From Pseudoclavibacter sp. AY1H1 (GTDB lineage: Bacteria > Actinomycetota > Actinomycetes > Actinomycetales > Microbacteriaceae): a stretch of DNA of 64,000 nucleotides. The position numbers were made by a program, and so were the translations under genes. Within the stretch, counting starts at the first letter, position 1; every line of letters begins with the position of its first letter. Below the pieces are notes generated by a model that was given only the letters and a program-made list of their open reading frames with translations, had not been told where the DNA came from and made no database searches. Positions 8,398-39,063 of this stretch are shown piece by piece. Location: NCBI RefSeq assembly GCF_002931055.1, contig NZ_PSXX01000011.1, positions 1-64,000 of the forward strand, read 5' to 3'.

Positions 8398-8955
8398 TCA
8401 GCAGGTCGGTGCGACCAGCGCCTTGATGAATGCCCCGGATTGGTACAGGTACTGCCAGGCCCAGTTGGAGTCGCCGATGCCGACGCCGTCGTCCGTGGCG
8501 AGCACTCCCCCACCAAGGCAGTCGGTGAAGATCATGCGGGCGCGGGAGATGTGGGTGACGCTCGTGACGATCATGACCGACTCCCATCCTTCCGCGGCGG
8601 CCAACCGCTTGACCATGAGCGCTTCCCCTGCCGTGGTGAAGGGTTCCGGGATGAGGCACCGCGTGACGGGCGCGGTGGACGCGTGGTCCGCTCCGACCTC
8701 GCACGCAGGGATGTTGATGGCGGAGTCGATGCCGTAGTCGTCGACGGCGATGACGACCGTGTCGCTGTAGCCGTCGGCGGCCAGTTGCTGGGCGGCCTGG
8801 ATGCGTGCCTCACGCGGCGGACCGAGCACGATGATGGCGTCGACCTCTCGGGGTTCGTCCGTGGAGGGGAAGACGAAGAGGGGAAGTCCGGCTGCGATGA
8901 CGACGACGAGCAGAGCAAGCGCCACGCCTGCCATGGACGCCACCCGTCTCGCCAT
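8398..8955 (-). CDS. YdcF/DUF218 family membrane-anchored protein (ElyC/SanA type)
   Basis: A protein of about 185 aa with one N-terminal transmembrane anchor. The extracytoplasmic DUF218 domain follows: DAIIVLGPPREARIQAA, then TAGEALMVKRLAAAEGW and VTSVTHISRARMIF. Members of the family affect envelope integrity in enterobacteria; the reaction is not established. The start is placed at the ATG at 8955, which has AGGACGGGG upstream. A GTG at 8982 is an in-frame alternative adding nine residues. It is separated from the PH-domain operon by 102 nt. Confidence 0.8.
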   Translation of the reverse strand: MARRVASMAGVALALLVVVIAAGLPLFVFPSTDEPREVDAIIVLGPPREARIQAAQQLAADGYSDTVVIAVDDYGIDSAINIPACEVGADHASTAPVTRCLIPEPFTTAGEALMVKRLAAAEGWESVMIVTSVTHISRARMIFTDCLGGGVLATDDGVGIGDSNWAWQYLYQSGAFIKALVAPTC

Positions 8956-9055
8956 CCCCGTCCTGCTTCCGCTCACCAGCACAGGCTACGTGAGCGGCGG
9001 GACCCGCCTCCGCCAGGCGCCGCGTCTCACTGCCGCGCGCGGTCCGAGCACACCC

Positions 9056-9202
9056 TCACCCCGGCACCTCGTGGGTGGACGCGGCCTGAGCTGGCGCCGC
9101 CACGGCGATGGCGATGATCGGAGTGGCCCATGCGACAGCGCCCAGTAGGCTGCGCCGTTCAGCGCCCCGCTCCGACTCTGCAGCTGATTCGTGTGTGGAC
9201 AT
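9056..9202 (-). CDS. 48-codon secretion-leader peptide gene, probably a truncated surface-protein gene
   Basis: The ATG at 9202 has AAGGGGG 7 nt upstream. It encodes a twin-Arg-containing leader (RRSLLGAVAWATPIIAIAVA), a signal-peptidase-like APAQAAS site and then only five more residues to a TGA. Leaders of this type in Microbacteriaceae normally introduce secreted proteins of 100-200 aa; here the mature part is missing. The strong ribosome site and intact leader make translation likely. It is either a decayed gene or a leader-only product. Confidence 0.55.
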   Translation of the reverse strand: MSTHESAAESERGAERRSLLGAVAWATPIIAIAVAAPAQAASTHEVPG

Positions 9203-9446
9203 CGTCGTTCCCCCTTGCTCTCGTGCGCGGGGCGTTTCCCTCGCACCAGGTCGGCCGGCGACTGACCCCCGTCGAGTTCCGACCTCCCGAATCCCCGACC
9301 CTACTCGGATTGGCTCGGTCCAGGTATGGGCAGAACTCCCCTGTGGATGCTTCGAGCCGGTGGCCCGTCCGAACGTCGCCGCCGGGCAGGTGCGGTCACG
9401 CAGGAATCAGGGGCAGGGCGCCTGCTCCGTCGATCGCGCAGGGCAA

Positions 9447-9458
9447 TAGCATTGGCCC
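9447..9458 (+). promoter_or_regulatory. Candidate leaderless promoter (-10 box) of the 9459 gene
   Basis: TAGCAT (9447-9452) is followed by 6 nt and then the ATG at 9459, with no Shine-Dalgarno. The same hexamer and spacing occur before the GTG at 32326. No convincing -35 is seen. Confidence 0.4.
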
Positions 9459-10148
9459 ATGAATGTCCCGGCGGAGCCGCCTCCAAGACGCTTCCTCGGC
9501 GCTGTCGAGCGGCGGCTTCCTGCCACGCTCGTCGAGCATCCGTTGCGCTGGAGCTGGGCGTGGTTCGTGGTCCTGGCGTCCGCGACGATCCTGGGCTGGG
9601 TCGCCGACTGGCCGATGCCCGTGTGGGCGGCGGTGGTCGTCGTGGGATCGCTGCCCTCGCTGACGGCGACGGTCGCTCTCCTCCTCCGCACTCCTCGCAG
9701 CCACCTCGACGAGCACGACTCGGTCTTCGGTCATTTCTTCGTCCGATTCGTGACGCTCGTGGTGGGGTTCGCGGCGTGGACGATCTCGGTGGTCATGAGC
9801 GCGAGCCTCTCGACGCTGCTGCAGCTCATGGCGGAGAACCGCGAGGACGAGATCACCTACTCGGGCATCCAGCTCTTCGCAGGCCTCATGCTCCCGGTCG
9901 TGCTGGCGATCTGGCTCGTCTTCCTGCTTCGCTGCGCCTGGTTCCTCGCCAAGCTCCGCGGATGGCGGGAGCACCCATCCCCTGAGCGCTCGCGTGTGCC
10001 AAGCACGTTCCTCGCCGAGTTCCCGAGGATGCGCCACGTGGTCGTCGGGTTTGCGCACCCCGGTGCGCTGCTCGCATCCGCTGGGCTCTCGTCGGCTGCA
10101 GTCCTCACGGAGGAGACGCTGCGCCTGACCTTCACGATGCTCTTCTAG
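9459..10148 (+). CDS. Uncharacterised integral membrane protein, four predicted helices
   Basis: A 229-aa protein that I do not recognise. Hydrophobic segments lie at about residues 32-52, 55-78, 92-122 and 138-165. A soluble C-terminal part of about 60 residues includes a moderately hydrophobic stretch. There is no catalytic motif. It stands alone, divergent from the short leader gene and convergent with the first glycosyltransferase, so context gives no role. Codon use is typical of the window and the frame has normal third-position GC bias, so it is a real gene. Confidence 0.65.
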   Translation: MNVPAEPPPRRFLGAVERRLPATLVEHPLRWSWAWFVVLASATILGWVADWPMPVWAAVVVVGSLPSLTATVALLLRTPRSHLDEHDSVFGHFFVRFVTLVVGFAAWTISVVMSASLSTLLQLMAENREDEITYSGIQLFAGLMLPVVLAIWLVFLLRCAWFLAKLRGWREHPSPERSRVPSTFLAEFPRMRHVVVGFAHPGALLASAGLSSAAVLTEETLRLTFTMLF

Positions 10149-10156
10149 ACCTCTCG

Positions 10157-10174
10157 GGCCGTGCGCGCGGCCCA
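10157..10174. terminator. Short GC-rich hairpin after the 9459 gene
   Basis: GGGCC and GGCCC arms enclose GTGCGCGC, 9 nt after the TAG of the membrane-protein gene. There is no T-run, so confidence is limited. The remaining gap to 10321 holds no supported gene. Confidence 0.35.
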
Positions 10175-10320
10175 GGCGACAAGGGCACCACCGAGGAGCA
10201 GGACAAGAGAGGCCCCTGAACCCAACCCGCCCAAGACGCGGTCGACGATCGGAGCGAGCCGCTCAGGGCCTCGCCGAGCCCTGGCCGGGCATCGTCCTGA
10301 CAGATAGCCAGTCAAAGCGA

Positions 10321-11445
10321 CTACGCCGCATTCCGCCCCGCTCCCGGGGAACGGCGACGGGCCCCCGGCGAGTTCTCCACCCGATCGCGCTCGAGCTGCT
10401 CGGCGATCGACTTCCACATCTGGTCGAAGGTGTACCGGTCCTCGACGGCAGCTCGCGCCCTGCGGCCCACCTCGAGCAGCTCGGCTGGCCGGGTGAGAAC
10501 CCTCTCTATCACCGCGGCAACCCCCTGCGGGTCATGGAGGGGCATACCGAAGTTGCTCACGCCCTCGTCGATGTACTCGCGCATCGCCTCCGTCTCGGTC
10601 ACGACGCAGGCTTTGCCAGACGACATGGCCTCGAGCAGCACGCTCTGGCCAGTGGGGTAGGCGAGGTCATGGGTCGGGGTGACGACGAGCTGGGCCGCGA
10701 GGAGATTCTGCCGGTGGGTCTGCCCGTCGGTGGGGCCGCTCGTCGTGACGTTCTTCGGCAGGTCCATCTGCTGGAATCGGTGGAGGTGCGAGACGAGGTG
10801 GAAGTCGACGTGTGGGAGGAGCCGTGCGGCCTCGACGAGGGTCTCGAAGTCGCGGCCAGCATCGAGGCCTCCGCTGAAGACCTGGAATCGCTGCTCGACC
10901 GAGGAGTCCGGCACGTACTTCGTGTGCTCGACCCCGAAGTTGATGGGAGCGACTTTCCCACCGGCGCCGATCTGAGCGAAGAGCTCGACTTGGTTCCGTG
11001 AGAAGACGAAGATGCGATCCACACCCGCCACCGTTCGCGCGATCTCCTCGCGCCGCGCAGCCGAGCCGGTCTTCAGCTCCTCCCCCCACCAGCAGGAGAC
11101 GGCGGCGAGTCTCGTCTTGGCATACGCGGTCAGACCCCGGCGCTTGAGCGCGGCCGGAAGCACAGACTTGTCTTCGAGGATCGCCAGGACAGCATCCGCC
11201 CGCCGCGCCGATGCCAGCCCCCGGATCGCGAGGTCGGCGGGGACACCCGTTCGGTGCTCGACGACGTCCTTGACCTTTCGGTGCACCCGAGAGCTCGGCA
11301 TGCGAACCGTGACCAGGTTGGCGTACTGGCCGAGCAGCTCCGCGCAGTAGGGCCCTCGCAGCTGATCGCCGGGCGAAGTCCCCGAACGGATCGAGGGCAG
11401 CCCGTCGTGGTCGAAGAGGCCCAGGATGGTGATGTTGTTGTTCAC
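10321..11445 (-). CDS. Glycosyltransferase, GT-B fold (GT4-like)
   Basis: A 374-aa protein. The C-terminal GT4 domain is clear: a beta-strand/loop at FQVFSGGLDAGRDFETLVEAA and the nucleotide-sugar EX7E-type region VVTPTHDLAYPTGQSVLLEAMSSGKACVVTET. The donor and acceptor are unknown. The GTG start at 11445 lacks a good ribosome site; TAGGCT lies 6 nt before it, so the message may be leaderless. It is the left boundary of the polysaccharide locus, divergent from the acyltransferase gene. The C-terminal tail is Arg/Gly-rich and probably disordered. Confidence 0.85.
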   Translation of the reverse strand: MNNNITILGLFDHDGLPSIRSGTSPGDQLRGPYCAELLGQYANLVTVRMPSSRVHRKVKDVVEHRTGVPADLAIRGLASARRADAVLAILEDKSVLPAALKRRGLTAYAKTRLAAVSCWWGEELKTGSAARREEIARTVAGVDRIFVFSRNQVELFAQIGAGGKVAPINFGVEHTKYVPDSSVEQRFQVFSGGLDAGRDFETLVEAARLLPHVDFHLVSHLHRFQQMDLPKNVTTSGPTDGQTHRQNLLAAQLVVTPTHDLAYPTGQSVLLEAMSSGKACVVTETEAMREYIDEGVSNFGMPLHDPQGVAAVIERVLTRPAELLEVGRRARAAVEDRYTFDQMWKSIAEQLERDRVENSPGARRRSPGAGRNAA

Positions 11446-12903: not shown

Positions 12904-14733
12904 GTGACTACGATCTTGCTATCTAAACTGCAGCTCATCTTCTCCAAGGGGGCTCGCCGGAAGTTGATCATCGGGCTGATCGGCTCGGTGATCGTCGCAC
13001 TCGCTGAGACTGGGTCGGTGCTCCTCGTCGGTCCGCTCTTGGCCATCCTCGCCGGCGGCTCCACGACAGAGGGCATGCTGGGCACCGTCGCGACGCTCTT
13101 CGGGAACCCCACGCCGGAGGTACTGATCATGTACCTGCTCGGAGGGGTGGTCGTCGGCTTCGTGCTGAAGGACATCTTCTCGATCGCGTTCCGCTGGTGG
13201 ATTCTGGGCTTCATCAACCGCGAACAGGCCCGAACGGCCACTCGAATCCTCAACTACTACCTGCATGCGCCGTACAGCCTCCATCTCGGTCGAGGCACGG
13301 CTGATCTCCTGAGGACCATGGGCACCTCCGTCGGTCAGCTCTATTCGCTCGGCGTGATCGCGGCGCTGAACGCCATTACCGACAGCATCACGATCGTGGC
13401 GCTTCTTGTGTCGATGCTCATCGTCATGCCCCTGCCCACGCTGATGGCCTTCGTCTACTTCGGCATTGCCATGTTCGTCTTCGCCCGAGTCATCCGTCCG
13501 CGTGCGGAAGCGGCTGGCCGGATGAAGATGGATGCAGCAACACATGGCTATCGCGCGGCCCTGCACGCCCTTGGCGGCGTCAAGGAGATCAAGATCCGCA
13601 GCGCTCAGCCGCACTTCGTCAACGTCTACGAGAAGGTCGAGCTCCAGCACGCGCAGGCTCTCCGCCTCGTCGGCTTCCTCGCGGAGGTTCCGAAGTACTT
13701 GCTGGAGGCGCTGTTCATCCTGGGCCTGGGCGGGCTCATCATGTTCCTGCTGAACACGGGTGGAGGCATTGCAGCGGTGACCTCGATCGGTCTCGTCGGA
13801 GCCGCTGGCTTCAGGCTCCTCCCGTCGCTCTCTCGTCTCCTCGCCTCGATCTCGAACCTGCGCGTCGGAGCCCCCGCGCTCGACGAGGTCTGCACCGAAC
13901 TCGAACGCGCAACAGAGTACGAGACGAGCGCGAACCTCGCGGCCGCCAACGACGGCACGCTCGATTTCTCTCACACTCTCGAGGCGAAGAATCTCGGCTT
14001 CCGCTACGAAGACGCCTCGGAGAATGTCCTGAGCGACATTAACCTGACCATCCCAGCAGGTTCGACGCTCGCGCTCGTCGGATCAAGCGGTGCAGGCAAG
14101 AGCACACTCGTCGACATCATCCTCGGGCTCCATCGCCCCACCGCAGGCACGCTCACCGTTGACGGGCAGGACCTGCGCGACGACCTCGTCAAGGCCTGGC
14201 AGCACCACGTCGCGATGGTTCCGCAGGAGGTCTTCCTCCTCGACACCAGCCTGCGGGAGAACATCGCGTTCGACGCCACGGCCGATGAGATCGATGAGGA
14301 GCTCCTCGCCGAGGTCGTGCAACGAGCACAGCTGCAGGACCTTGTCGATTCTCTGGAGGGAGGCCTCGACTCCTCTGTCGGCGACCGAGGCTCACGGCTT
14401 TCCGGCGGTCAGAGGCAGCGCGTGGGCATAGCTCGTGCCCTCTACCGGCGCCCTTCGCTTCTCGTGCTGGATGAAGCGACTTCAGCTCTCGACAATGAGA
14501 CAGAACACAAGATCATCGAGACCATCGACGGGCTCAAGGGCGAGGTGACCGTCGTCATCGTCGCTCACCGGTTGTCCACGGTCCGCGAAGCAGACGCGCT
14601 CGCCTACATGAAGAACGGGCAGGTCGCCGGATACGGCACCTTCGAAGAAGTGCGCTCCAGCAACGCTGATTTCGCTCGTCAAGTCGAGTTGGGCCTGCTG
14701 AAGGTCACCGACAGCGATCCCGTGACTCCGTGA
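12904..14733 (+). CDS. ABC exporter, fused membrane/ATPase (MsbA/PglK-like flippase)
   Basis: Half-transporter of about 609 aa, expected to act as a homodimer. Six transmembrane helices occupy residues 1-320. The ATPase follows with Walker A GSSGAGKST (393-401), signature LSGGQRQR, Walker B LLVLDEATSALD and the H-loop AHRLS. PglK and MsbA relatives flip lipid-linked glycans. As the first gene of an operon with three glycosyltransferases, it is the best flippase candidate in a locus that has no Wzx. The GTG at 12904 has GAGG directly against it. A TTG at 12916, 9 nt after GAGGTG, is an equally good start. The stop overlaps the next start by 4 nt. Confidence 0.9.
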   Translation: MTTILLSKLQLIFSKGARRKLIIGLIGSVIVALAETGSVLLVGPLLAILAGGSTTEGMLGTVATLFGNPTPEVLIMYLLGGVVVGFVLKDIFSIAFRWWILGFINREQARTATRILNYYLHAPYSLHLGRGTADLLRTMGTSVGQLYSLGVIAALNAITDSITIVALLVSMLIVMPLPTLMAFVYFGIAMFVFARVIRPRAEAAGRMKMDAATHGYRAALHALGGVKEIKIRSAQPHFVNVYEKVELQHAQALRLVGFLAEVPKYLLEALFILGLGGLIMFLLNTGGGIAAVTSIGLVGAAGFRLLPSLSRLLASISNLRVGAPALDEVCTELERATEYETSANLAAANDGTLDFSHTLEAKNLGFRYEDASENVLSDINLTIPAGSTLALVGSSGAGKSTLVDIILGLHRPTAGTLTVDGQDLRDDLVKAWQHHVAMVPQEVFLLDTSLRENIAFDATADEIDEELLAEVVQRAQLQDLVDSLEGGLDSSVGDRGSRLSGGQRQRVGIARALYRRPSLLVLDEATSALDNETEHKIIETIDGLKGEVTVVIVAHRLSTVREADALAYMKNGQVAGYGTFEEVRSSNADFARQVELGLLKVTDSDPVTP

Positions 14734-16910
14734 CGCGGCCTCAACCTCTTGAGACGCGCGTCGTCATGCTCGGCGGCGCGGTCCCGTACCCCGGTGTTCG
14801 CCACGCGGGCGGCCTGTACGTCCACCACCTGACGCGGTCGTTGTCGGAACACGGTGTGGTCGAGGTGATCGCTCCGGACCACACCGCGAACCAGAAGGCG
14901 CTCGAGCATGTGGACACGCGCGTCGCAGCGCACCTGGTCGGCCGATGGGCGTCCCCCAGCTCACGACAGCGGCTGCTGCAACGCGGCGTCGGGATCGTCG
15001 AGAGGGGCTGGAGGCGCGTCGATCCTGCAGCACCCCCACTCGGCATCCTCGTGAGCCTCTACTTCGATCCGCGGGTGCGCGAGTCCGTCGCGAGCGCCGA
15101 CCTCGTCGACCTGCAGTGGTTCGAGTTCATTCGCCTCGCCCCGCACATCCGACGTCTCAATCCGAGCGCACGGATCGTGGGCACCTTCCACGATGTGCTC
15201 TCGCAGCTCTACGCGCGTCGCGCTGACGACGGAGGCCTCGGGCGGTGGCGGCGCGCTGAGACCGTGGCCATCGCCGCGGAACGTCGCTCCCTCCGGCACC
15301 TCGACAGCGTCCTGACTCTGAACGAGAAGGATGCGGAGCTGCTGAGGCGACGCGGAGCGACCGAGGTCGAGGTCATCGACCCGCCTCTCTCCCCAGTTGC
15401 ACTGCCGAATCGTGACGTGGACAGCGCCTCCCCGGAGGTCGTGTTCGTCGGATACTTCGCGCGGCAGGTGAACGTCGATGCGGCGACCTGGTTCATCGAT
15501 CAGGTCTGGCCGGAGGTCATCGCCGCGGTTCCCCACGCCCGGCTCACGCTGGTCGGCCTCGACCCGGATGGGGCTCTGGCTCCTCTCGTCTCGCGGGCGG
15601 TCCAGGTGACCGCGGCGGGATTCGTCGACGAGCTGTCGCCGGTCTACGCGCGAGCCGCTGCTGTGGTCGTTCCGCTCCTCTCAGGCTCGGGTGTGAAGTT
15701 CAAGACCATCCAGGCGATGACGCACGGCGTGCCGACGATCTCGACCTCCGTGGGCGCCGAGGGGATTGCGCACAGCGACGAGCTGGAGGCGGTGACGGAC
15801 AACCCCGCAGCGTTTGCGGGGGCCGTCGTCGGGGTCCTGCGCGACCAGCGAGGCGCCGACCTCCGAGCCGACGACCTCGCCGGGAGACTCTCGGCGACCT
15901 ACGGCGAAGAACGGTTCAGGGAGACAGTGAAGAGAATCTACGGCCAAGACGAGCCACAGGCAGCCATCGACAGGGACTCCGTGACGGTGGTCATTCCCTA
16001 CTACGGGGAGCCGACGGACACGCTCAACCTCATCGAGCAGCTGCGCGGGCAGGACGGTCTCGCCGAGATCATCGTCGCCGATGACGCGTCTCCCGTCCCC
16101 TTCCCCCAGCAGCCGGGGGTACGACTCGTGCGCCGCGAGGCCAACGGCGGGTTCGGCGCCGCAGTGAACACCGGCTCAGAACTGGTGGAGACCGACCTGA
16201 TGCTGGTCCTGAACAGCGATCTGGAGGTGGGCGCAACGTTCATCCGCGACCTGCTCTATGCCGCTGGACCACTTCCTACCGCGGTCGTCAGCCCTCAGGT
16301 GGTGAAGTCGAACGGTGAGCCGGAGTGGACCGCTCGCCAATTCCCACGCATCAGACACCACGTGGTCGAGTGGCTCTCCCCGCTCGCGCGCTGGCGCCAC
16401 CTTCCTGCACTGCAGCGTGCCGTTGGGCACGTGACTGCGCTCACACCAGGGGGCAGCGACCGAGTCGACTGGGTCATCGGTGCCGCGATGCTCCTTCCCG
16501 TCAGGGATTTCAGGAGTGTCGGAGGTTTCGACGAGCGGTACTTCATGACGTCCGAGGAAGTCGATCTGCAGAGGCGTCTCCTCGCACGGGGCGTTCCCTC
16601 CTACGTGGCGAATACCGTCACCGTCACGCACGTCGGTGGCGGATCGTCGGACACTTCTCTGCGGCGGCAGTGGCTTCTGACTGCTCGGCAGCGCTACGTG
16701 AACAAGTGGGGCGGTTCGGTCGCCTTCACGACATCCCTGGCGCTGGCGAGCCTCGTCAACTTCGCGGTGAACGCCCCCCGGCAGCTGACCGGACGTGACC
16801 TCGACGCGCGCGCGACGCTGCGATACGAACTCGGCCTCCTCCGGGCAGCGAGGCAGCAGGCGAGCCAACCGTCGCACCCGTCGACCCGTATCCGAGCGGA
16901 GCACGCATGA
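14730..16910 (+). CDS. Bifunctional glycosyltransferase: GT4 domain fused to GT2 domain
   Basis: A 726-aa protein. Residues 1-400 form a GT4-type GT-B domain (GGAVPYPGVRHAGGLYVHHL near the start, VVPLLSGSGVKFKTIQAM as donor-site region). Residues 410-720 form a GT2/GT-A domain opening with VTVVIPYYGEP, with the DDAS motif, the NGGFGAAVNTG stretch and LNSDLE (DXD-like). A rhamnosyltransferase-like ending follows. It probably adds two consecutive sugars. It is translationally coupled to the exporter by a GTGA overlap and to the next gene by ATGA. Confidence 0.9.
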   Translation: MTRPQPLETRVVMLGGAVPYPGVRHAGGLYVHHLTRSLSEHGVVEVIAPDHTANQKALEHVDTRVAAHLVGRWASPSSRQRLLQRGVGIVERGWRRVDPAAPPLGILVSLYFDPRVRESVASADLVDLQWFEFIRLAPHIRRLNPSARIVGTFHDVLSQLYARRADDGGLGRWRRAETVAIAAERRSLRHLDSVLTLNEKDAELLRRRGATEVEVIDPPLSPVALPNRDVDSASPEVVFVGYFARQVNVDAATWFIDQVWPEVIAAVPHARLTLVGLDPDGALAPLVSRAVQVTAAGFVDELSPVYARAAAVVVPLLSGSGVKFKTIQAMTHGVPTISTSVGAEGIAHSDELEAVTDNPAAFAGAVVGVLRDQRGADLRADDLAGRLSATYGEERFRETVKRIYGQDEPQAAIDRDSVTVVIPYYGEPTDTLNLIEQLRGQDGLAEIIVADDASPVPFPQQPGVRLVRREANGGFGAAVNTGSELVETDLMLVLNSDLEVGATFIRDLLYAAGPLPTAVVSPQVVKSNGEPEWTARQFPRIRHHVVEWLSPLARWRHLPALQRAVGHVTALTPGGSDRVDWVIGAAMLLPVRDFRSVGGFDERYFMTSEEVDLQRRLLARGVPSYVANTVTVTHVGGGSSDTSLRRQWLLTARQRYVNKWGGSVAFTTSLALASLVNFAVNAPRQLTGRDLDARATLRYELGLLRAARQQASQPSHPSTRIRAEHA

Positions 16911-25827: not shown

Positions 25828-26579
25828 TGAGCGGAGTCCTTGTCTGTCGATGCTGCGGTGTGCGCTGACGGAGCGGCGGCCGCGTCAGGATGAAGCTGGG
25901 AGAGCTGGTGGTCTGCGATGGAGAGATCGAGCTCGGTGTCGATGTCGACGCCTTCGAGGTCATCCATCTCGAAGATGCCGATCGTGCCACCGAGCCGGTT
26001 GTGCTCCCGCTCGTAGATCTCGGTCTTCGTGAGGTAGAGCGAGCCCGTCTCGCGGTAGAACATCTGCGTGCGCTGCAGCTCCTGGCGGCGGGGCCTCGCG
26101 CCGATCGTGAAGTGCGCCTTCGGCTGGTCCCCCTCTGCCGCTCCGTACTGCCAGAGGAACGGCGTCTGGGGCACGGCACCCACCATCGAATCGACGCCCG
26201 TCGCCGCGAACTGCGAGATCGCACGGTCGAGGGTGCCCGGAAGCCGCACGGGCGAGGTCGCCTGCAGGAGCATGACGGCATCCGGTCGTCGCCCGGCGGC
26301 CGTGTACTCGGCGATGGCGTGCTCGACCACCGGCTCGGTCGCCGTCGTGTCTTCAGCGAGGTGCGCGGGGCGCAGCCACGGCACCTGCGCGCCGGCTTCC
26401 CGTGCGATGGCGGCGAGGGCCTCGTCGTCGGTGGAGACGAGGACATCCATCTGGGGACGCGCCGCGAGGGCCTGCTCGATGGTCCAGGCGACCAGTGGCT
26501 TGCCGGCGACTCGGCGCCTGTTCTTGCCCGGGATGCCTTTGGAGCCTCCCCGCACGGGGATGACGCACAAGATCCTCAT
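25824..26579 (-). CDS. CMP-nonulosonate cytidylyltransferase (NeuA/KpsU-like)
   Basis: Activates the NeuB product with CTP. The protein is 251 aa. It begins MRILCVIPVRGGSKGIPGKN, containing the nucleotide-binding R-G-G-S-K-G-I-x-x-K-N motif. LVSTDDEALAAIA and LLQATSPVRLPGTLDRAI are the usual substrate-site segments, and DIDTELDLSIAD closes the core. A tail of about 25 Ala/Ser/Asp-rich residues is extra. The ATG at 26579 has GGAGG 7 nt upstream and overlaps the upstream stop by 4 nt. CMP-Neu5Ac specificity is not certain. Confidence 0.9.
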   Translation of the reverse strand: MRILCVIPVRGGSKGIPGKNRRRVAGKPLVAWTIEQALAARPQMDVLVSTDDEALAAIAREAGAQVPWLRPAHLAEDTTATEPVVEHAIAEYTAAGRRPDAVMLLQATSPVRLPGTLDRAISQFAATGVDSMVGAVPQTPFLWQYGAAEGDQPKAHFTIGARPRRQELQRTQMFYRETGSLYLTKTEIYEREHNRLGGTIGIFEMDDLEGVDIDTELDLSIADHQLSQLHPDAAAAPSAHTAASTDKDSAQ

Positions 26580-27616
26580 ACTGTTTCCTCCAGAATCCGC
26601 GAGATGCTCGCGGCTATCAACTGTGCTGGCTCTGTCTGGGGAACAGGAGGGGCAGGAGTCGAATCGCTGCCCCACTGCGAAAGACCATACCGTGTCCAGA
26701 AGTCGCGCACCCACTCGGGCGGGTCGACGCACGTCACCCAGGCATCCTGGCCGGCGGCGGCGGCCTCGAGGACCCCCGTGGAGAAGACGGAGACGACCGG
26801 CCGGTCGAGGGTCGCGAGCGACTGGCCCGAGCTCTCGAAACGCACTCCGCGCCGCTGCCAGGCGCGGTGCTGCAGACGCGACAGGCGGTCGGTCTCCGCT
26901 GGGTGCGGACGATACTCGGCACCGGTCGTCGTGCAGAACGTCCGGGCGGTCCTCGCCGACGTCCACCGAGACAGCTCAGCACCGTGCAGCTGGCCGAGGA
27001 AGACGGGAGTCGCGTCTCCGGGACCTTCGGGACGCCCGCGGTTGCGACGCGAGGCATGCCAGAGCAGCTGCGCACCCACGACCTCATGCGTGACATCACC
27101 TCGTCCCGACTTCCAGAACTCGGCGTCGTCCTGGGAGAACGCGAGCAGGTGACTGCCGCGAGCCAACGGCGGCGCGAACGGCGTCGTCAAGCCATGCTGG
27201 GCCACGACGAACCGTGCCCCGAGCTGCCTGCTCCAGCGGTAGCCGACGGCCCCAGCGGGAAGGAAGTGACCTGCTGCGAAGACGGCACGAACGCCGCGGA
27301 GCTCCCCCGGGAGGTCCAGCCCCTTGAGCCGACGGCTCGTCCAGCTGCCGTCGAGCATCCCGCTGAGGTCTTTCGGCGCGAGAACGGCGACCTGTTCGCC
27401 TTCGAGGAACCGCAAGGGCTCCGCGTAGGCCGCGACCGCACTGGGGGTGGGCACATCGATGAGGACAAGCAGACGCGGTTCGGGCCCGTTGACCATGAGC
27501 GTGAACTCCGGCTCCGCAGAGGGACGCCGCACACGGGTCATGATCTGGCGTTTGAGGGACCTCGAATTCTGCCAGCGCTGCCACGCCTCGAGGTCCTCCG
27601 GAATGTTCAGTCCCAC
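26576..27616 (-). CDS. Putative nonulosonic-acid transferase (sialyl/polysialyltransferase-like GT-B)
   Basis: A protein of about 346 aa without a family I can name firmly. Features recalling bacterial sialyl- and polysialyltransferases are an HP motif in YRPHPAETDRL and a Ser/Thr-rich SVFSTGVLEAAAAG near the C-terminus; in those families the HP and S/T motifs bind CMP. FVVAQHGLTTPFAPP fits a GT-B inter-domain region. Coupling to neuA (4-nt overlap) supports the idea; function is inferred. The start is GTG at 27616, 4 nt after GGAGG, overlapping the upstream stop by 10 nt. The frame stays open further upstream, but there it is antisense-like shadow within the next gene. Confidence 0.6.
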   Translation of the reverse strand: MGLNIPEDLEAWQRWQNSRSLKRQIMTRVRRPSAEPEFTLMVNGPEPRLLVLIDVPTPSAVAAYAEPLRFLEGEQVAVLAPKDLSGMLDGSWTSRRLKGLDLPGELRGVRAVFAAGHFLPAGAVGYRWSRQLGARFVVAQHGLTTPFAPPLARGSHLLAFSQDDAEFWKSGRGDVTHEVVGAQLLWHASRRNRGRPEGPGDATPVFLGQLHGAELSRWTSARTARTFCTTTGAEYRPHPAETDRLSRLQHRAWQRRGVRFESSGQSLATLDRPVVSVFSTGVLEAAAAGQDAWVTCVDPPEWVRDFWTRYGLSQWGSDSTPAPPVPQTEPAQLIAASISRILEETV

Positions 27617-32325: not shown

Positions 32326-33546
32326 GTGACAGAGCATTCTCCGTTGGCAGGGGCCATCAGCAAAACTCCGGACTTCGTTCGAGATTCCATCTTTGCCGTC
32401 GGCAGCACTCGCATCATCGATGCCGTGCTGATGATGTTCTTCGTCGTCCGCATCGCGACACCCGGCATCGGGCTCCCCGTGAACGACGTCGCCGGACTGC
32501 TCCTCGTCGCCGTCGCCGCCTTCCGCCGGCCCACCAGGCAGCTGAGCGGCACGACCTGGTTCGCGGCGATCAGCGTCCTCCTCGTCACGTTCCTCGTCAT
32601 CGTGGCGATCGCGACGGGCCCGAATCAGGCAGACATCACCCGCCTCGGCCGAATCCTCATCCTGTTCTTCCTGGCCGGCTTCATCGCCAGCGGACGCATC
32701 GACATCGTCTCGGGCCTCAAGGGATTCTCGGTCGGGCTGCTCGCCAACATCCCGCTCTTCTACGCAGGGCTCGCCCCGGACACCTACGGCGGGCTCCTCA
32801 CCGGCTTCCTCAACGACAAGAACGTCGCCGGATTCACGTACGCGATCATGACCGTGCTCCTCTTCCTGATCTACAGGCGCCTCTGGACCCGAATCGCCCT
32901 CACCGGCCTCGGCCTGGGGGCAGTGGTGCTGACCGACTCTCGGACCTCGATGGCCGCACTTGCCGCAGCCATCATCTGGCTGGTCCTCGCGCGCTTCCTC
33001 GGCCCGTTCTTCCGCGTCGTCCTCGCCGGAGTGCTGCTCGGCGGGTTCTTCTATGCAGAGAACAACCTCTCGCAGGTCGGCGCCTACGCCGCACGTTCCG
33101 GATCAGACGAGCTGCGCGACCGAATCGATGCCGCATCGCTCGAGAAGACACTGGCTGCGCCCTGGTACGGCCACGGACTCGGAGAGGCGACCACCGAGGT
33201 CGCCGGGGATGTCTGGTTCTTCCACAACTCCTACTGGGGCCTCATCACGGAGGGCGGCTACGCCTTCCTGCTCGCCATCCTCGCGCTCCTCGCGTTCGCT
33301 GGATTCCAGTTCCTGGGGAAGGGCAAGCAGACGCCTGAAGCCCGCATCGTCGAGGCCGCGACGATCGTCATCCTGCTCTGCTCGTTCCGCCTCGGAGAGG
33401 TGTTCATCACCCTCCCGACCTTCATCGCCATCGGCATCGGCCTCGGCATCTACTCGCAGCGACACTCTGACTGGCTCGTCCGTCAGGCGGCAGCGGGCCC
33501 GGAGGTCGAAGGGGCGCTCTTCCCCATCCAGCAGCGCGTCAGCTAG
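32326..33546 (+). CDS. O-antigen ligase/Wzy-like polysaccharide polymerase
   Basis: A 406-aa integral membrane protein with about ten helices. The Wzy_C/WaaL signature region is LAAPWYGHGLGEATTEV followed by WFFHNSYWGLITEGGYAFL, including the conserved His-Asn-x-Tyr of the large periplasmic loop. It likely polymerises lipid-linked repeat units outside the membrane, matching the co-polymerase at 29214. No other polymerase candidate is in the locus. The GTG start has the leaderless promoter described separately. The gene is alone in its orientation and ends before a strong hairpin. Confidence 0.87.
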   Translation: MTEHSPLAGAISKTPDFVRDSIFAVGSTRIIDAVLMMFFVVRIATPGIGLPVNDVAGLLLVAVAAFRRPTRQLSGTTWFAAISVLLVTFLVIVAIATGPNQADITRLGRILILFFLAGFIASGRIDIVSGLKGFSVGLLANIPLFYAGLAPDTYGGLLTGFLNDKNVAGFTYAIMTVLLFLIYRRLWTRIALTGLGLGAVVLTDSRTSMAALAAAIIWLVLARFLGPFFRVVLAGVLLGGFFYAENNLSQVGAYAARSGSDELRDRIDAASLEKTLAAPWYGHGLGEATTEVAGDVWFFHNSYWGLITEGGYAFLLAILALLAFAGFQFLGKGKQTPEARIVEAATIVILLCSFRLGEVFITLPTFIAIGIGLGIYSQRHSDWLVRQAAAGPEVEGALFPIQQRVS

Positions 33547-33856: not shown

Positions 33857-34591
33857 TCAGACGGCGCCGAACCGCGGAAGCGGCCACACGATGGAGAAGA
33901 CCTCGCCCACGACGTCGTCGTCGCGGACCGTGCGCAGGCAGGAGGCGTCCACTCCTCCGCCGCGGCACGCGGCGAGCGAATCGGAGGAGTTGGTGCGGTT
34001 GTCTCCGAGGACCACGATCTGGCCTTCCGGCACGGTGAACTCGTCGAAGCAGCGCAACGAGGCGGGAGACGTGGAGCAGTCGAGCGTGCCTGGCACGAAC
34101 TCGAAGTCGAGGTCGACGTAGGAGCTCTCGTCGAGCGCGGTTCCGTCCACGACGATGCCACCTGTCGCCGGGTCGACCGCCATCGTCTGACCTCCGGTCG
34201 CGATGACGCGCTTCACGAGGATGTGCGAGAAGCCCTGGCCGATGCCGAAGACCTCCCCCACCACGCGTGCGGCGAATCGCAGCGGATCGCTGGGAGCCTC
34301 GGGCGGCGCCTCGTCCCACGTGTCAGAGGCCGCGAACACGACGATGTCACCAGTGATCGGTTCGGCGTCACCCAGGTACGCGAGGCGATTGACCAGGATG
34401 CGGTCACCGACGGCGAGCGTGTCGTCCATGGAGGCGGACGGGATGGCGTACACCTTCACGAAGAACGCCTGCACGAGCGCGAGGACCGCGAACGCGGCGA
34501 CGAGATGGAAGAGCGGATGCGACGTCACACGTCGCAACCGCGATCGCGGCGCCCGTCTGCCAGGGGCGTCCGCGAGGTCGCCGTCGCTCAC
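33857..34591 (-). CDS. lepB: Signal peptidase I (type S26)
   Basis: A 244-aa protein with one membrane anchor at about residues 28-46. The catalytic Ser54 is in YAIPSASMDDTL, the catalytic Lys127 in ILVKRVIATGG, and the box E GDNRTNSSDS region is present. It cleaves signal peptides outside the membrane. The start is GTG at 34591, overlapping the stop of the HprK-like gene by 4 nt. Translational coupling to a kinase within a glycan locus is unusual, as housekeeping lepB is usually near rplS and rnhB. It may therefore be a dedicated peptidase for the adjacent module. Confidence 0.92.
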   Translation of the reverse strand: MSDGDLADAPGRRAPRSRLRRVTSHPLFHLVAAFAVLALVQAFFVKVYAIPSASMDDTLAVGDRILVNRLAYLGDAEPITGDIVVFAASDTWDEAPPEAPSDPLRFAARVVGEVFGIGQGFSHILVKRVIATGGQTMAVDPATGGIVVDGTALDESSYVDLDFEFVPGTLDCSTSPASLRCFDEFTVPEGQIVVLGDNRTNSSDSLAACRGGGVDASCLRTVRDDDVVGEVFSIVWPLPRFGAV

Positions 34592-35736
34592 TGACCCGCC
34601 GTATTGCCGACGACCGCGGCTTGCACGCGTTCGACGAGATTCGCCTCCACGAGACCTTCGAGGGCCACCTGCACCAGGTGACGCGCGTCCGGGACCTCAC
34701 CGTACTGCTCGATGAGCGCAGCCGTGAGGCTCGTGAGGGTCGTCCAGTCGCCGAGAAGCTCCCACAGACCAGGCGCGATGCCGGCCAGTTGCCTGACGAT
34801 GCGCGATTCGAGCGTGACCGCCTCGTTCTCGAACAGCAGCCAGTGGACGCCAGAGGCGCGTCGGTAGGAGTCCTCTCGGACGGTGGCCGAGGGTGTCCTC
34901 GTGTCTGCCACGCTGTGACCCGATGTCCACGGCTGGAGGTCGCCCTGAGCGGCGAGGATCTCGGGGACCAGCGCAACGACCTGCGAGGCCTCTGAATACG
35001 TGACCCGTCGCACGCCGTCGGTGGCGTCGATGAGCTCCGCAAGCTGCACCAGCGGATCCGGCAGGGCGGGCAGGTAGCTCAGCTCCGGGACCATCGAGCC
35101 GATCGCACTGCCGGTCGCCACTGGCGAGAGCTGCGGGCCGTCGACGAGCTCGTGCTCGTCGACACGGTGCAGGAGCACGATCGCGGCGATCTTGAGCGGC
35201 GCCTGCGGGAGGGGGCGCAGCCCGAGCTTCGCGGGTGAGAGCTGCGCCTTGGGCCGAGCCGAGTCGACGATGACCGAGAGCGGCTTGCGGTACGGCAGGA
35301 CGGTGCCGTCGAAGTCGACGGCGAGGGTCTCGTCGGTGACATAGCCGAATTCGCGGCCGAGGGTCTTCGCGAGGGTCGTCTTGCCGCGCCCAGAAGGACC
35401 GACGAACGCGATGACCCGACCGTCGTCGAGCGCGACGCCCGCCGCGTGGAGCATCACGAGGCGACCGCCGTTGTGCTCGATCGCGTCGAGCGTCACCGTG
35501 GTCGAGATCTGCGAGGCCAGATCGGCTGCCGAACCGCTCACCACGTCGGTTGCCTCGGGTTCGCTCAAGGGAGCGAGCGCAAGACGATGTGATTCGTCAG
35601 GCTCACCTTCCCCGGGCTGGCCAGTCACGTCGGCCCAGGACTCCCGCAGATCCGCCTCGAACTCCGCCGAGATGCTCTCATCGAGGCGAAGTTCTACGTC
35701 TACGCCAAGTGGATTCAGGCGCAGTGTTCTCGTCAT
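34588..35736 (-). CDS. HprK-like kinase (HPr kinase/phosphorylase-related P-loop protein)
   Basis: A 382-aa protein. An N-terminal region of about 80 residues precedes an HprK-type core: AAGVALDDGRVIAFVGPSGRGKTTLAKTL with Walker A GPSGRGKT (113-120, Lys119), followed by the GYVTDETLAVD strand and a late IAAIVLLHR. The last 100 or so residues are helical with a winged-helix look. Such kinases act in lasso-peptide tailoring (phosphorylating a C-terminal Ser) and in the uncharacterised 'HPr-rel-A' sets beside glycan or exosortase genes. No HPr is present nearby. The ATG at 35736 has no ribosome site, but TACAGT lies 7 nt before it, suggesting a leaderless message. Coupled to signal peptidase I. 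Confidence 0.82.
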   Translation of the reverse strand: MTRTLRLNPLGVDVELRLDESISAEFEADLRESWADVTGQPGEGEPDESHRLALAPLSEPEATDVVSGSAADLASQISTTVTLDAIEHNGGRLVMLHAAGVALDDGRVIAFVGPSGRGKTTLAKTLGREFGYVTDETLAVDFDGTVLPYRKPLSVIVDSARPKAQLSPAKLGLRPLPQAPLKIAAIVLLHRVDEHELVDGPQLSPVATGSAIGSMVPELSYLPALPDPLVQLAELIDATDGVRRVTYSEASQVVALVPEILAAQGDLQPWTSGHSVADTRTPSATVREDSYRRASGVHWLLFENEAVTLESRIVRQLAGIAPGLWELLGDWTTLTSLTAALIEQYGEVPDARHLVQVALEGLVEANLVERVQAAVVGNTAGQ

Positions 35737-35959
35737 GCTGGCAACTGTACCAAGCAGGCGCGGCCTGGGACGGCTCAGGGGAGCACTCCCCATTCCCGCG
35801 CCTCGAGCTGTCGCCCGAAAGGGAGGCTTCGAGCACACCTTCGAGGCGGTCCGAACGTGCCGTCCGACGCCTCGGAAGTGCACGCCCACACACTCGCAGA
35901 CCTCGATATGCTCGCTCTTGCGAGTTCTCTCGGCTCGCGACGCAGATCTAAGGACCCCA

Positions 35960-36949
35960 GTGACCGCAGCAGCCGCGTCCCCGGACGCCGCGACCATCGC
36001 GTTCTCGGTGAACGATGGAGTCGCGCTGTCGACGGCGCTCACGCAGCATGTCGCCCGCGAGCAGGGCATCCGCATGCTCGTCATCAAGGGGCCGATCTCC
36101 GCCGATCTCGGACTGCGCACTCGCCGGTACTCCACCGACGTCGACATCATCGTCGAGCCCGGCCGCGCGAAGGACCTCATCGAAGCGCTCCAGGCGTACG
36201 GGTGGCGCCCTCGCCCTTGGCCCGACTTCCCGAAGCTGCTCGAGCAGCACTCGCGCACCCTCATCCACGAGTCCTGGCCGAACGACATCGACGTGCATCA
36301 CTACTGGCCTGGTTTCCTCGGCAGGCCGCAGGAGGCATTCGATCGCCTGTGGGCGCACCACATCCAGGTCACCGTGGCCGGCCACCCCATCGACACTCCC
36401 GATCGGGCGGGCAGCGCCCTCGTCCTCGCGCTGCACTCCCTCCGCGAGGAGGGCCAGGTCTCAGCGGACTCCCGCCAGATGACCGAGTACAGCGAGCTCG
36501 TCAGCGCGCTGAAGAAGATGGATGGCTCCGACACGCAGTTCGTCTCGGACGCGCGCTCGACCGCGTCCCTCACGGAGCAGATCCTGCAGGACGCGGTCGG
36601 AACGGACTCGACGCAGACCGCGCGACGCTTCCTCACAGACCTCGGACACGATGTCCCGCTCGTCCCGAACTCGAACGCCAGCGAGGCGCTGCGCCTGTGG
36701 CGTCTCAACGCCAAGGCTGAGCACGCGATGACGGGCTGGATGCTCAAGCTGCAGCGGGCTCCCCTCCTCGAGAAGCCGGGCATCGCGGCCCGCGCGTTCT
36801 TCCCCTCTCGCGCGGATCTCGCGGCCATCGACCCCGAGCTGCGCAACGGCACGATCAGCGTCGTCAGGGCCTGGTGGAAGCGAGCGAGCCGAGGGCTGCA
36901 CGGTCTTGTGCAGGCCAGGCGCGATCTCAAGGCGTTCGACAAGCGCTAG
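35960..36949 (+). CDS. Nucleotidyltransferase family protein (PF14907-like), glycan/RiPP-associated
   Basis: A 329-aa protein. Its nucleotidyltransferase core has LVIKGPISADLGL, then RRYSTDVDIIV with metal-binding Asp60 and Asp62. IDVHHYWPGF and ALVLALHSLREEG are also characteristic of this PF14907-type family. Members accompany HprK-like and PqqD-like proteins in lasso and exosortase-linked clusters; the transferred group and acceptor are unknown. The GTG at 35960 has AAGGA 5-6 nt upstream. The frame is open further upstream, but that part is antisense to the kinase gene. It is divergent from the kinase and convergent with the PqqD gene. Confidence 0.8.
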   Translation: MTAAAASPDAATIAFSVNDGVALSTALTQHVAREQGIRMLVIKGPISADLGLRTRRYSTDVDIIVEPGRAKDLIEALQAYGWRPRPWPDFPKLLEQHSRTLIHESWPNDIDVHHYWPGFLGRPQEAFDRLWAHHIQVTVAGHPIDTPDRAGSALVLALHSLREEGQVSADSRQMTEYSELVSALKKMDGSDTQFVSDARSTASLTEQILQDAVGTDSTQTARRFLTDLGHDVPLVPNSNASEALRLWRLNAKAEHAMTGWMLKLQRAPLLEKPGIAARAFFPSRADLAAIDPELRNGTISVVRAWWKRASRGLHGLVQARRDLKAFDKR

Positions 36950-36991
36950 CGGCGTCGGCCACCCCGATGCTGACGGCGTACGTCGCGACTG

Positions 36992-37333
36992 CTACGCGGA
37001 GGTGTGCGAGTCGAGGATCTGCAGCAGGTGGGCGTCCAGCAGCTGCGTCACGAAGCCGAGCACCTGCTCACCGATGACCTGCTCGTCGAGCCCGTAGTCG
37101 GCCGAGAGCTCGCGCACGATGAGCTTCAGCGAGCGGACGCCGTCGAGCTCGTCCCAGATGACGGCCGCCGTCCCGCTGAGCACCAGCGGCTTGCAGCTCG
37201 TGTCGACGAGCGACAGGACGGTCAGGTCTCCGCTCTCATCGTCGCGGACGAGGGCCAGAGCAGGCGCCGGGGTGATCACGGCCTCGAAGAGCTGCCCGCT
37301 CTCACGACGCTGATCGCCTATCGCCTGATCCAT
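36992..37333 (-). CDS. PqqD-like peptide-binding protein (RRE fold)
   Basis: A 113-aa protein. The winged-helix RiPP-recognition-element pattern is clear: LVLSGTAAVIWDELDG (51-65), LIVRELSADYGLD, then VLGFVTQLLDAHLLQ. PqqD proteins hold a precursor peptide for modifying enzymes. Its partners should be the HprK-like kinase and nucleotidyltransferase nearby. No leader-type peptide gene was found in the flanking gaps. The ATG at 37333 lies after a strong terminator of the next gene on its other side. Confidence 0.8.
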   Translation of the reverse strand: MDQAIGDQRRESGQLFEAVITPAPALALVRDDESGDLTVLSLVDTSCKPLVLSGTAAVIWDELDGVRSLKLIVRELSADYGLDEQVIGEQVLGFVTQLLDAHLLQILDSHTSA

Positions 37334-37446: not shown

Positions 37447-39063
37447 CTAGTAGGCGCCCTCACTGGCGACGACTGCACGAGCAGTGCGGAAGAGGATGAC
37501 GAAGTCGCCGGCCATGGACCAGTTCTCGACGTAGTAGAGGTCGAGGCGCACCGTCTCCTCCCAGGTCAGGTTGGAGCGTCCGCTCACCTGCCAGAGGCCC
37601 GTGATGCCGGGCTTCACCATGAAGCGACGGTGCACGTGGTCTTCGTACTGCTTGACCTCTCGGTCCAGCGGCGGACGGGGGCCGACCAGCGACATGGAGC
37701 CGCCGAAGACGTTGAACAGCTGCGGGAGCTCGTCGATCGAGTAGCGACGGATGAACTTGCCGACCTTCGTGATGCGAGGGTCGTCCTTCATCTTGAAGAG
37801 GATGTCGTTGCCCGCGTCACGGCGCTCGCTCTGCAGCTTCTTCAGCACCTCTTCGGCGTCGGCTCGCATGCTGCGGAACTTCCACATCGTGAATCGGCCG
37901 CCGCTGTAGCCAACGCGCTCCTGCTTGAAGAACACGCCGCCAGGCGAGGTGACGGCCACGGCGATCGCCGTTCCGACCAGGAGGGGCGAGAGGACGAGGA
38001 TGAGGAGGCCGGAGACGAGGATGTCGAAGGCGCGCTTGAGCAGGAGCCCCATGCGCGTGAACTTCGGGGAGTCGACGTGCAGCAGCGGCAGGCCGGCGAC
38101 CGGGCGCGTGACGATGCGCGGGCCACCCACGTCGAGCAGGCCTGGCGCGACGATGAGGAAGTGGCGGTCCGGGTCGAGGTCCCAGCCGACTTCGCGAAGC
38201 CACTGCGTCGAGGTGACGTCGTTGCCTGCGATGACGACGGTGTCGGCGCCGATGGCGTCGAGCGAGCCTGCCAGGTCCTCCGGGTTGCCGCCGATGGGGA
38301 CATCCGTTCCCGGCAGGAAGTCGGGAGAGTTGGGGTCGAGCTCGCCGCTCTTGCCGTCGATGAGGCAGGCGCCGACGACGTTGTAGCCGGCGGCTTCACG
38401 ACGCGAGAGGTCGCGGTTGAGGTCGAGCACCGAGTAGCGCGAGCCGACGAGCAGCACACGTGCCTGCAGGTTTCCGCCCTTGCGCTGGCGGACGAGCCAC
38501 TGGCGACCGATCCAGCGGGAGAGGAGGAGCGCGACGGTGCCGACCGGGAAGGCGATGAGCACGTATCCACGGGCAAGCTCGAATGCCGAGAGGTAGGCGA
38601 AGATCGAGACGATTCCCGCGAGCATGAGCGAGGCGTTGAAGATGCCGCGGTACTCCTCGAACCCTGAGCCCAGGATGCGGTAGTCACGGGTGTCGAAGAG
38701 GGAGAGCATCCAGGCCCAGCCGACGACGATGACGGTTGAGACGAGCCAGTAGGACACTTCGCTGCTGATGAAGCCGCTGCCGCCGGCGGGAACGGCCGCG
38801 TTGCCGCCGCCGAGCCAGACGAGCTGGGCTCCCACCATGACGACCGCCAGAATGGCGAGGTCGGTCAGAACGAGGAGCTGCGCGTACCCCTGGCGCCAGT
38901 TGGCGCGGCGTTTGTTGCTTCGCTGGACCCGAGCGTTCTGTTCTGAGGAGGTCTGCGCGAAGTGCGGTTCGACCGAGGGCAGCATGTCGCTGTCTCGCGA
39001 ATCGTCAGTCGCGGTTGCGACTGGGATCTGCGAGGTAGCGGGCCCTGAGGTGGGTGGCGTCAC
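37447..39063 (-). CDS. Polyprenyl-phosphate sugar-1-phosphate transferase (WbaP/CpsE-like)
   Basis: Starts the lipid-linked repeat unit by moving a sugar phosphate onto undecaprenyl phosphate at the inner membrane face. The protein is 538 aa: four N-terminal helices (about residues 65-190), a nucleotide-binding-like domain (ARVLLVGSRYSVLDL), one more helix before the catalytic part, and the bacterial sugar transferase domain with GGRFTMWKFRSM, IRRYSIDELPQLFNVF and MSLVGPRPPL. Galactose or glucose is usual; the sugar cannot be read from sequence. The GTG at 39063 follows TTGGAGC by 4-6 nt; the frame is open upstream but without a ribosome site. Confidence 0.93.
   Translation of the reverse strand: MTPPTSGPATSQIPVATATDDSRDSDMLPSVEPHFAQTSSEQNARVQRSNKRRANWRQGYAQLLVLTDLAILAVVMVGAQLVWLGGGNAAVPAGGSGFISSEVSYWLVSTVIVVGWAWMLSLFDTRDYRILGSGFEEYRGIFNASLMLAGIVSIFAYLSAFELARGYVLIAFPVGTVALLLSRWIGRQWLVRQRKGGNLQARVLLVGSRYSVLDLNRDLSRREAAGYNVVGACLIDGKSGELDPNSPDFLPGTDVPIGGNPEDLAGSLDAIGADTVVIAGNDVTSTQWLREVGWDLDPDRHFLIVAPGLLDVGGPRIVTRPVAGLPLLHVDSPKFTRMGLLLKRAFDILVSGLLILVLSPLLVGTAIAVAVTSPGGVFFKQERVGYSGGRFTMWKFRSMRADAEEVLKKLQSERRDAGNDILFKMKDDPRITKVGKFIRRYSIDELPQLFNVFGGSMSLVGPRPPLDREVKQYEDHVHRRFMVKPGITGLWQVSGRSNLTWEETVRLDLYYVENWSMAGDFVILFRTARAVVASEGAY

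Follow-up and report, generated by a model that had tools for sequence, protein, structure and literature searches.

A kinase and nucleotidyltransferase module in a Pseudoclavibacter glycan locus and its link to a genome-wide family of secreted proteins sharing one leader

What does a protein-modifying enzyme set act upon when no substrate is encoded beside it? The question is raised by a module of four genes in a window comprising bases 1-64000 of contig C3 in the 4.2 Mb genome of a Pseudoclavibacter strain. A signal peptidase I (33857-34591; Peptidase_S26, E = 6e-27) and a 382 aa HprK-like kinase (34588-35736) are encoded on the reverse strand, followed after a gap of 223 bp by a nucleotidyltransferase on the strand opposite to the kinase (35960-36949, forward; NTP_transf_5, PF14907, 42 bits against a cut-off of 31.2) and by a stand-alone RRE of the PqqD family (36992-37333, reverse; PF05402, 42 bits, cut-off 23.4). 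The original prediction, which located these four genes correctly, held that there was neither a visible substrate nor a leader. This is accurate for the immediate locus of the window strain, but not for three Pseudoclavibacter relatives (L005, L006 and L007, the last being Pseudoclavibacter helvolus DSM 20419) with kinases 86-88% identical, in which the PqqD and kinase genes enclose one for a secreted protein of 215-229 aa that has the leader.

Beside kinases of other families lie further secreted proteins, with dissimilar bodies and one common leader, and the consensus leader of the small secreted proteins found next to kinases in relatives is SRRxVLxGAAWxxPxI...PAxAAS. Among 81 unique leaders from kinase loci, the proline after the tryptophan and a second proline are present in 100%, as is RR, whilst the tryptophan is found in 95% and a serine after the A-x-A motif in 93%; the residue two positions past the first proline is mostly I, V, L or A. 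The pattern used for seeding demanded R[RK], the tryptophan and the first proline, and did not demand the second proline or the serine. Features of the twin-arginine translocation (Tat) type are evident, with RR ahead of a hydrophobic core (81/81, the seeding pattern having asked for R[RK]) and an A-x-A site, and the WxxP motif sits within this core. Judged by its sequence, the leader appears to be a twin-arginine signal peptide and an RRE ligand of the form WxxPx[I/V/L/A] at once, which would be exported through the one property and bound through the other. It resembles twin-arginine signals in its RR, hydrophobic core and A-x-A, and adds a near-invariant W-x-x-P, a second proline and a serine at position +1, none of which, to our knowledge, forms part of the Tat consensus.

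A model of the leader, A1, was made of 59 rows from 69 unique segments, one false positive and nine near duplicates or poorer segments having been dropped by hand. The rows come from kinase loci; the window genome supplied none, and four of the five kinase-bearing congeners supplied some. In the window genome the model has 34 matches at E <= 0.01, 33 of them at E <= 1e-5, and the clients are a genome-wide leader family of about 30 secreted proteins. A protein client with an export signal, as called for by the original prediction, is supported by these matches; its invisibility is not. Alignment of 29 full-length clients, which range from 152 to 374 aa, reveals that the only invariant columns are M, RR, W, P, P and S. 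The last of these, the serine after A-x-A, is the sole invariant hydroxyl residue and lies 17 residues past the tryptophan; in a crude control, serine was found in four of 54 other signal-like ends. A conserved client fold was sought and discarded, as none of the 29 matched Pfam at E <= 0.01 and a single weak NCBIfam match was obtained (choice-of-anchor C, E = 0.001); a client structure model had a mean pLDDT of 52 and was not used.

The only leader match inside the window itself is a 48 aa open reading frame (ORF) on the reverse strand (9056-9202; E = 1.1e-11), in which the leader is intact up to the serine and is followed by six residues and a stop codon. On sequence grounds it could be a short peptide or what is left of a client, and it looks like a remnant, since a congeneric region, L049, has two full-length clients (13397-14056 and 14344-15003) between the same neighbour genes. 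In Aeromicrobium, a kinase gene is followed by one for a secreted protein (L008, 4123-4779, forward strand) with a twin-arginine leader lacking WxxP, so that beyond this group a different leader code may apply.

Leader and kinase occur together across genomes. Of 396 genomes sampled from the order, 85 have the kinase and 89 the leader (E <= 1e-3); both are present in 80, the kinase only in five, the leader only in nine and neither in 302 (Fisher test, 1e-66). Kinase status was assigned at E <= 1.2e-15 from the best four candidates per genome, with G038, where the match falls into two collinear pieces (E = 1.8e-9), added by hand; a match of any strength is present in 358/396, mostly to P-loop stretches, and was not used. 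The leader search took the best 19 candidates per genome, so that its per-genome counts are lower bounds. Because the leader was found beside kinases, the association was retested without the 24 genomes that had supplied A1 rows (a list made by hand), giving 56, 5, 9 and 302 genomes in the same four classes (Fisher test, 1e-50). Because genomes are not independent lineages, it was also stratified by genus: 59 genomes with both were observed against 34.5 expected with the module's own genus included, and 33 against 18.3 expected (z = 7.3) without that genus and the 24 genomes, 18 kinase-negative genomes having no genus assignment and some genus strata being incomplete. Within the genus itself, five kinase genomes have 34, 16, 41, 11 and 25 leaders, and five others have none. 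In L049, the congener with the fewest leaders (11), the kinase is shortened internally and the nucleotidyltransferase is in pieces (8648-10414), and the module is perhaps decaying.

The same pattern was found in a sample of 376 genomes from the phylum, examined for leader and kinase in two scans that took the best five and the best 20 candidates per genome: the leader (E <= 1e-5) is present in three, and it is these three, and no others, that match the kinase strongly (E <= 1.6e-72). In 11 genomes where the kinase match is weaker (E = 8.7e-13 to 5.1e-23), no leader was detected. In the order, the nucleotidyltransferase family PF14907 was found in 77 of 85 genomes with the kinase vs 48 of the 311 others, and 76 genomes have kinase, leader and PF14907 together. 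Kinase neighbourhoods were studied in 65 loci, five from a related-locus search and 60 fetched regions picked by hand, 59 of the latter from the kinase list of the order, with the crowded genus g16 thinned, plus the congener G006. In 34 of 63 loci there is a leader no more than 5 kb from the kinase, and in 19 no more than 1 kb from it, a proximity count resting on loci that were also used to find the leader. The link between kinase and leader is well supported.

The kinase of the window has H97, a Walker A motif (PSGxGKTT, 114-121), D135-E136, K151-P-L-S154, K163 and R191. Near-invariant among these are H97, K119, D135 and E136, which resemble the His-Lys-Asp-Asp motif that lasso kinases cannot do without (PMC9266682). 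A structure model from six sequences (mean pLDDT 68) predicts a fold of the phosphoenolpyruvate carboxykinase (PEPCK)/HPrK class with a TbiB1-like end. HPrK chains appear in the Foldseek list for this model at E = 1.8e-3 and weaker; in a second structural look, the 50 entries listed are filled by PEP carboxykinases and HPrK is absent there, to which no weight was given. By sequence, among the best 60 of 396 PDB matches, those to the kinase part of the profile are for the most part generic P-loop ATPases. Identification as HPr kinase proper was rejected, with Hpr_kinase_C matched by one of 30 relatives at E <= 0.01; HPr kinase/phosphorylase is alike in its P-loop fold, and the module kinase differs from it by an RRE-like domain. 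TIGR04352 (HPr-rel-A), in contrast, is matched by 28 of 30 at the same threshold. HPr-rel-A kinases are grouped with PqqD and nucleotidyltransferase proteins, and the kinship suggested earlier holds at the level of kinase class, but is remote: the window kinase scores 22.4 bits, far below the curated cut-off of 200.

A single PqqD domain had been described in the module. The stand-alone protein is indeed one, but the C-terminus of the kinase (residues 289-371; 34624-34872, reverse strand) is a second RRE/PqqD-like domain. Over this stretch, a profile of 30 kinases matches 9x8z (LppB, E = 3e-5), 5v1u (TbiB1, 5.5e-5) and 9x90 (PbaB1, 2.3e-4), and the predicted structure aligns with 5v1v_A (Foldseek E = 1.3e-3, TM-score 0.79 by target length); Pfam alone scores it at 20.8 bits, below its cut-off of 23.4. 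The domain is present in 42 of 56 kinases; the seeds of the profile used for this count were the domain of the window kinase and eight short ORFs from kinase loci. Eight of the 14 kinases without it, all from one genus (L056, L057, L058, L064, L066, L071, L073 and L074), have a low-molecular-weight (LMW) protein tyrosine phosphatase domain at the N-terminus. Directly downstream of four of them (four of the 14 lacking a fused RRE), an RRE-like ORF was called. The stand-alone PqqD protein is closest among solved RREs to 9x90 (PbaB1, E = 7e-10), followed by 5v1u (E = 1.8e-6), and by these matches both it and the kinase C-terminus are homologous to solved RREs. PbaB1 is an RRE of the paeninodin kind, and such RREs favour Trp-type WxxP leaders (PMC13381572).

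In the nucleotidyltransferase, K43-G44, D60-x-D62 and D111-x-H113 are invariant in an alignment of 21 sequences, hence residues that appear to be of catalytic type are retained in this enzyme as in the kinase; it had no match to solved structures at E <= 0.1. Of 65 loci, 37 have a nucleotidyltransferase and 26 a PqqD-type match within about 10 kb of the kinase; a home-made gene caller had given the former in 22 of 63, and six-frame profiles raised the count. Two nucleotidyltransferases (L053, 3023-4132, and L077, 15444-16538, both reverse strand) have an N-terminal extension of about 90 aa, PqqD-like by eye and with no Pfam call.

The signal peptidase is of the bacterial type, scoring 95.8 bits against TIGR02227 (cut-off 47) vs 14.7 bits against the archaeal TIGR02228 (cut-off 51.85), and motifs containing the serine (PSASM) and lysine (VKR) are visible by eye. 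Its GTG start shares four bases with the kinase ORF, so that the translational coupling proposed earlier is plausible. A genome-wide count, made for the window genome (elsewhere, signal peptidases were counted in kinase loci), gave two Peptidase_S26 matches, of which this is one, so it is not the cell's sole signal peptidase, a circumstance that would have told against a dedicated role. It is 44-51% identical to the peptidases of seven kinase loci in other genera and 37% identical to the second one of its own genome, which argues for a kinase-linked subfamily of signal peptidase I and supports the dedicated enzyme of the original prediction.

The nearest account found in a literature search, which took in few subscription journals and no bioRxiv preprints and returned none of such an actinobacterial system, is that of the linear polyphosphorylated peptide (LPP) systems of Bacillota (Popov et al. 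2026, PMC13381572). According to that paper, the leader is bound through its YxxP by an RRE, between one and four phosphates are added to the precursor by an HprK-like kinase, with core Ser3 as the target of LppK, and the RRE hands the precursor to a signal-peptidase-like enzyme. The same paper gives [Y/W]xxPx[L/V/I/F/A] as the lasso RRE ligand. Common to LPP and the module are an HprK-like kinase, a discrete RRE, a nucleoside triphosphate (NTP) transferase, a peptidase of signal-peptidase type, an aromatic-xxP leader motif, variable C-termini and a position in or near capsule loci; the LPP acceptor serine lies 18 residues past the tyrosine, and the +1 serine of the module, if it is the acceptor, 17 past the tryptophan. 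The differences are as plain. The LPP peptidase is of archaeal (SipW) type and that of the module bacterial; the LPP leader is YxxPxVLxHQxIxFETxxS, whereas that of the module is W-x-x-P-x-I without HQ or FET, its aromatic residue being tryptophan rather than tyrosine and its motif lying inside a twin-arginine signal; and the module kinase is usually fused to an RRE. Where LPP clusters have one to three precursors of 35-200 aa, the clients here are 152-374 aa, mostly unlinked, with 33 leader matches in the window genome and 11-41 in kinase-bearing congeners. Since peptidase type and leader motif differ, and LPPs and paeninodins are described as restricted to Bacillota (PMC13381572), the module is not an LPP, though it would work like one. 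Paeninodin and pseudomycoidin systems likewise share an HprK-like kinase, a nucleotidyltransferase and an RRE (B1) with it (PMC9266682), though their acceptor is the C-terminal serine and no lasso protease or cyclase was found in nine ORFs at the module locus. Pseudomycoidin is phosphorylated by PsmK, and its phosphoserine receives hexoses only with the help of PsmN, a protein annotated as a nucleotidyltransferase (PMC9266682).

We consider it fairly probable that the module is a leader-guided protein-modification system with a logic akin to that of LPP, the machinery of the four genes probably docking on a shared export tag and adding phosphate, perhaps sugar. Some 30 secreted proteins are made with a leader that would serve as both Tat signal and RRE ligand. 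The kinase-fused and stand-alone RREs would then bind WxxP in the cytosol, bringing kinase and nucleotidyltransferase to the precursor; given the domains present and the co-conservation, such docking is likely. The kinase would phosphorylate, perhaps repeatedly, the serine just after the A-x-A cleavage motif, the candidate acceptor because it is the sole invariant hydroxyl in the 29 clients and because its spacing from the tryptophan is 17 vs 18 from the LPP tyrosine; we hold this step to be finely balanced, leaning slightly to doubt. More tentatively still, and by analogy with PsmN, the nucleotidyltransferase would add a nucleotide or sugar to the phosphate. Finally the RREs would let go of the signal and Tat would export the protein, with cleavage after A-x-A by a signal peptidase, in this strain probably that of the module.

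The module of the window is flanked by glycan genes, as had been noted: a Wzy_C-type polymerase (32344-33546) lies on one side and a sugar transferase (37447-38985) on the other, and a GT4 glycosyltransferase, a tyrosine-kinase-like ATPase, an LMW phosphatase and a LytR-CpsA-Psr protein are encoded in the surroundings. An ABC-transporter ORF with a membrane region (12904-14733, forward strand) belongs to the wider glycan locus, 19 kb off; no MsbA-like exporter is among the four module genes. The reported absence of a lasso protease or cyclase stands for the nine ORFs scanned between 25.8 and 41.8 kb, the matches of which were to other Pfam families (the scan left out the ORFs at 26576-27616 and from 41882 onward), but not for the genome, which has a separate lasso-type set on contig C9 near 59.6 kb (L002, 20-2129). 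As read from its ORFs, this set comprises PqqD/B1 together with asparagine-synthetase-like and B2-like ORFs, and a membrane ORF comes after it.

Several findings weigh against a leader-guided modification system. In the nine leader-only genomes (two of which, G247 and G266, are weak members), the kinase profile finds short P-loop stretches only, among up to 150 candidates per genome; in the five of these from which regions were read, only G099 (L173) has, at the syntenic place, an RRE ORF and what looks like a short piece of a kinase. PF14907 is present in two of the nine, G099 and G329, the latter having ten leaders (L168, L169) and no kinase that could be found. Conversely, in five genomes with the kinase no leader reaches E <= 1e-3, at 29 of 63 loci the 5 kb around the kinase are free of leaders, and the window genome has no intact client near the module. 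Co-conservation of the four genes, which the original prediction had proposed to survey, holds well for the nucleotidyltransferase by the counts given above, and neither of the two outcomes that the prediction named as refuting it came up, but the module's peptidase family was found in 11 of 65 kinase loci only. Tat or the peptidase might by itself require the leader, and the +1 serine could serve cleavage. Lastly, the nucleotidyltransferase step is weakened by the case of LppN, no visible effect of which emerged when it was tested heterologously (PMC13381572).

Because WxxP falls within the hydrophobic core, a bound RRE would hide the signal, and the RREs might thus be export chaperones in a form of Tat-signal quality control, with kinase and nucleotidyltransferase spending ATP and NTPs to time release and the clients unmodified or transiently so. 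Such an arrangement would account for the 29 aligned clients sharing only the leader invariants M, RR, W, P, P and S, and the LMW-phosphatase domains fused to eight of 56 kinases would suit a reversible switch. We regard it as unlikely, however: two NTP-using enzymes for timing would in our judgement be unusual, and related RRE-partnered HprK-like kinases modify precursors in lasso and LPP systems (PMC9266682, PMC13381572).

Production of a short ribosomally synthesised and post-translationally modified peptide (RiPP), excised from the client N-terminus or a small ORF with the large secreted proteins as mere carriers, is suggested by the RiPPs that homologous enzymes make and by the 48 aa leader-only ORF. 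The full-length clients, however, have no conserved core past the leader, and that ORF resembles a remnant, a relative having two full-length clients in its place; this explanation is very improbable. A short lasso-like peptide within the four-gene locus was also looked for and rejected, no candidate being seen among the locus ORFs. Scarcely better is the proposal that the module regulates or decorates exopolysaccharide, linked to the leader proteins indirectly, both being surface traits. It would fit the module's flanking glycan genes in the window, the frequent position of LPP and paeninodin clusters in capsule loci (PMC13381572) and the finding that 42 of 63 kinase loci have a glycan marker (a Wzz-type kinase, a sugar transferase or GT4) at a distance of about 10 kb or less. 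However, such markers were not found in the other 21 loci, although gene calls may miss some, and the glycan locus was rejected as a general defining context, contrary to the earlier view that the module belongs to it. Nor would glycan regulation explain why the leader tracks the kinase within genera and carries an RRE motif.

If the module does modify secreted proteins under the guidance of their leader, leader-guided peptide modification would extend to whole secreted proteins and be coupled to Tat export. A large actinobacterial secreted-protein family, none of the 29 scanned members of which matched Pfam, would gain a function and a concrete acceptor site, and the targets of RRE-kinase-nucleotidyltransferase sets in glycan loci would become testable, their clients being abundant and findable by one motif. 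Less likely than not is the general proposition that actinomycetes use RiPP-type enzymes as a surface-protein modification system, in which one Tat/RRE leader would mark dozens of proteins per genome for cytosolic (poly)phosphorylation and phospho-glycosylation of the future N-terminus; export and cleavage by a signal peptidase of the system's own would follow. Through the N-terminus so modified, these proteins may then be joined to the cell-surface glycan.

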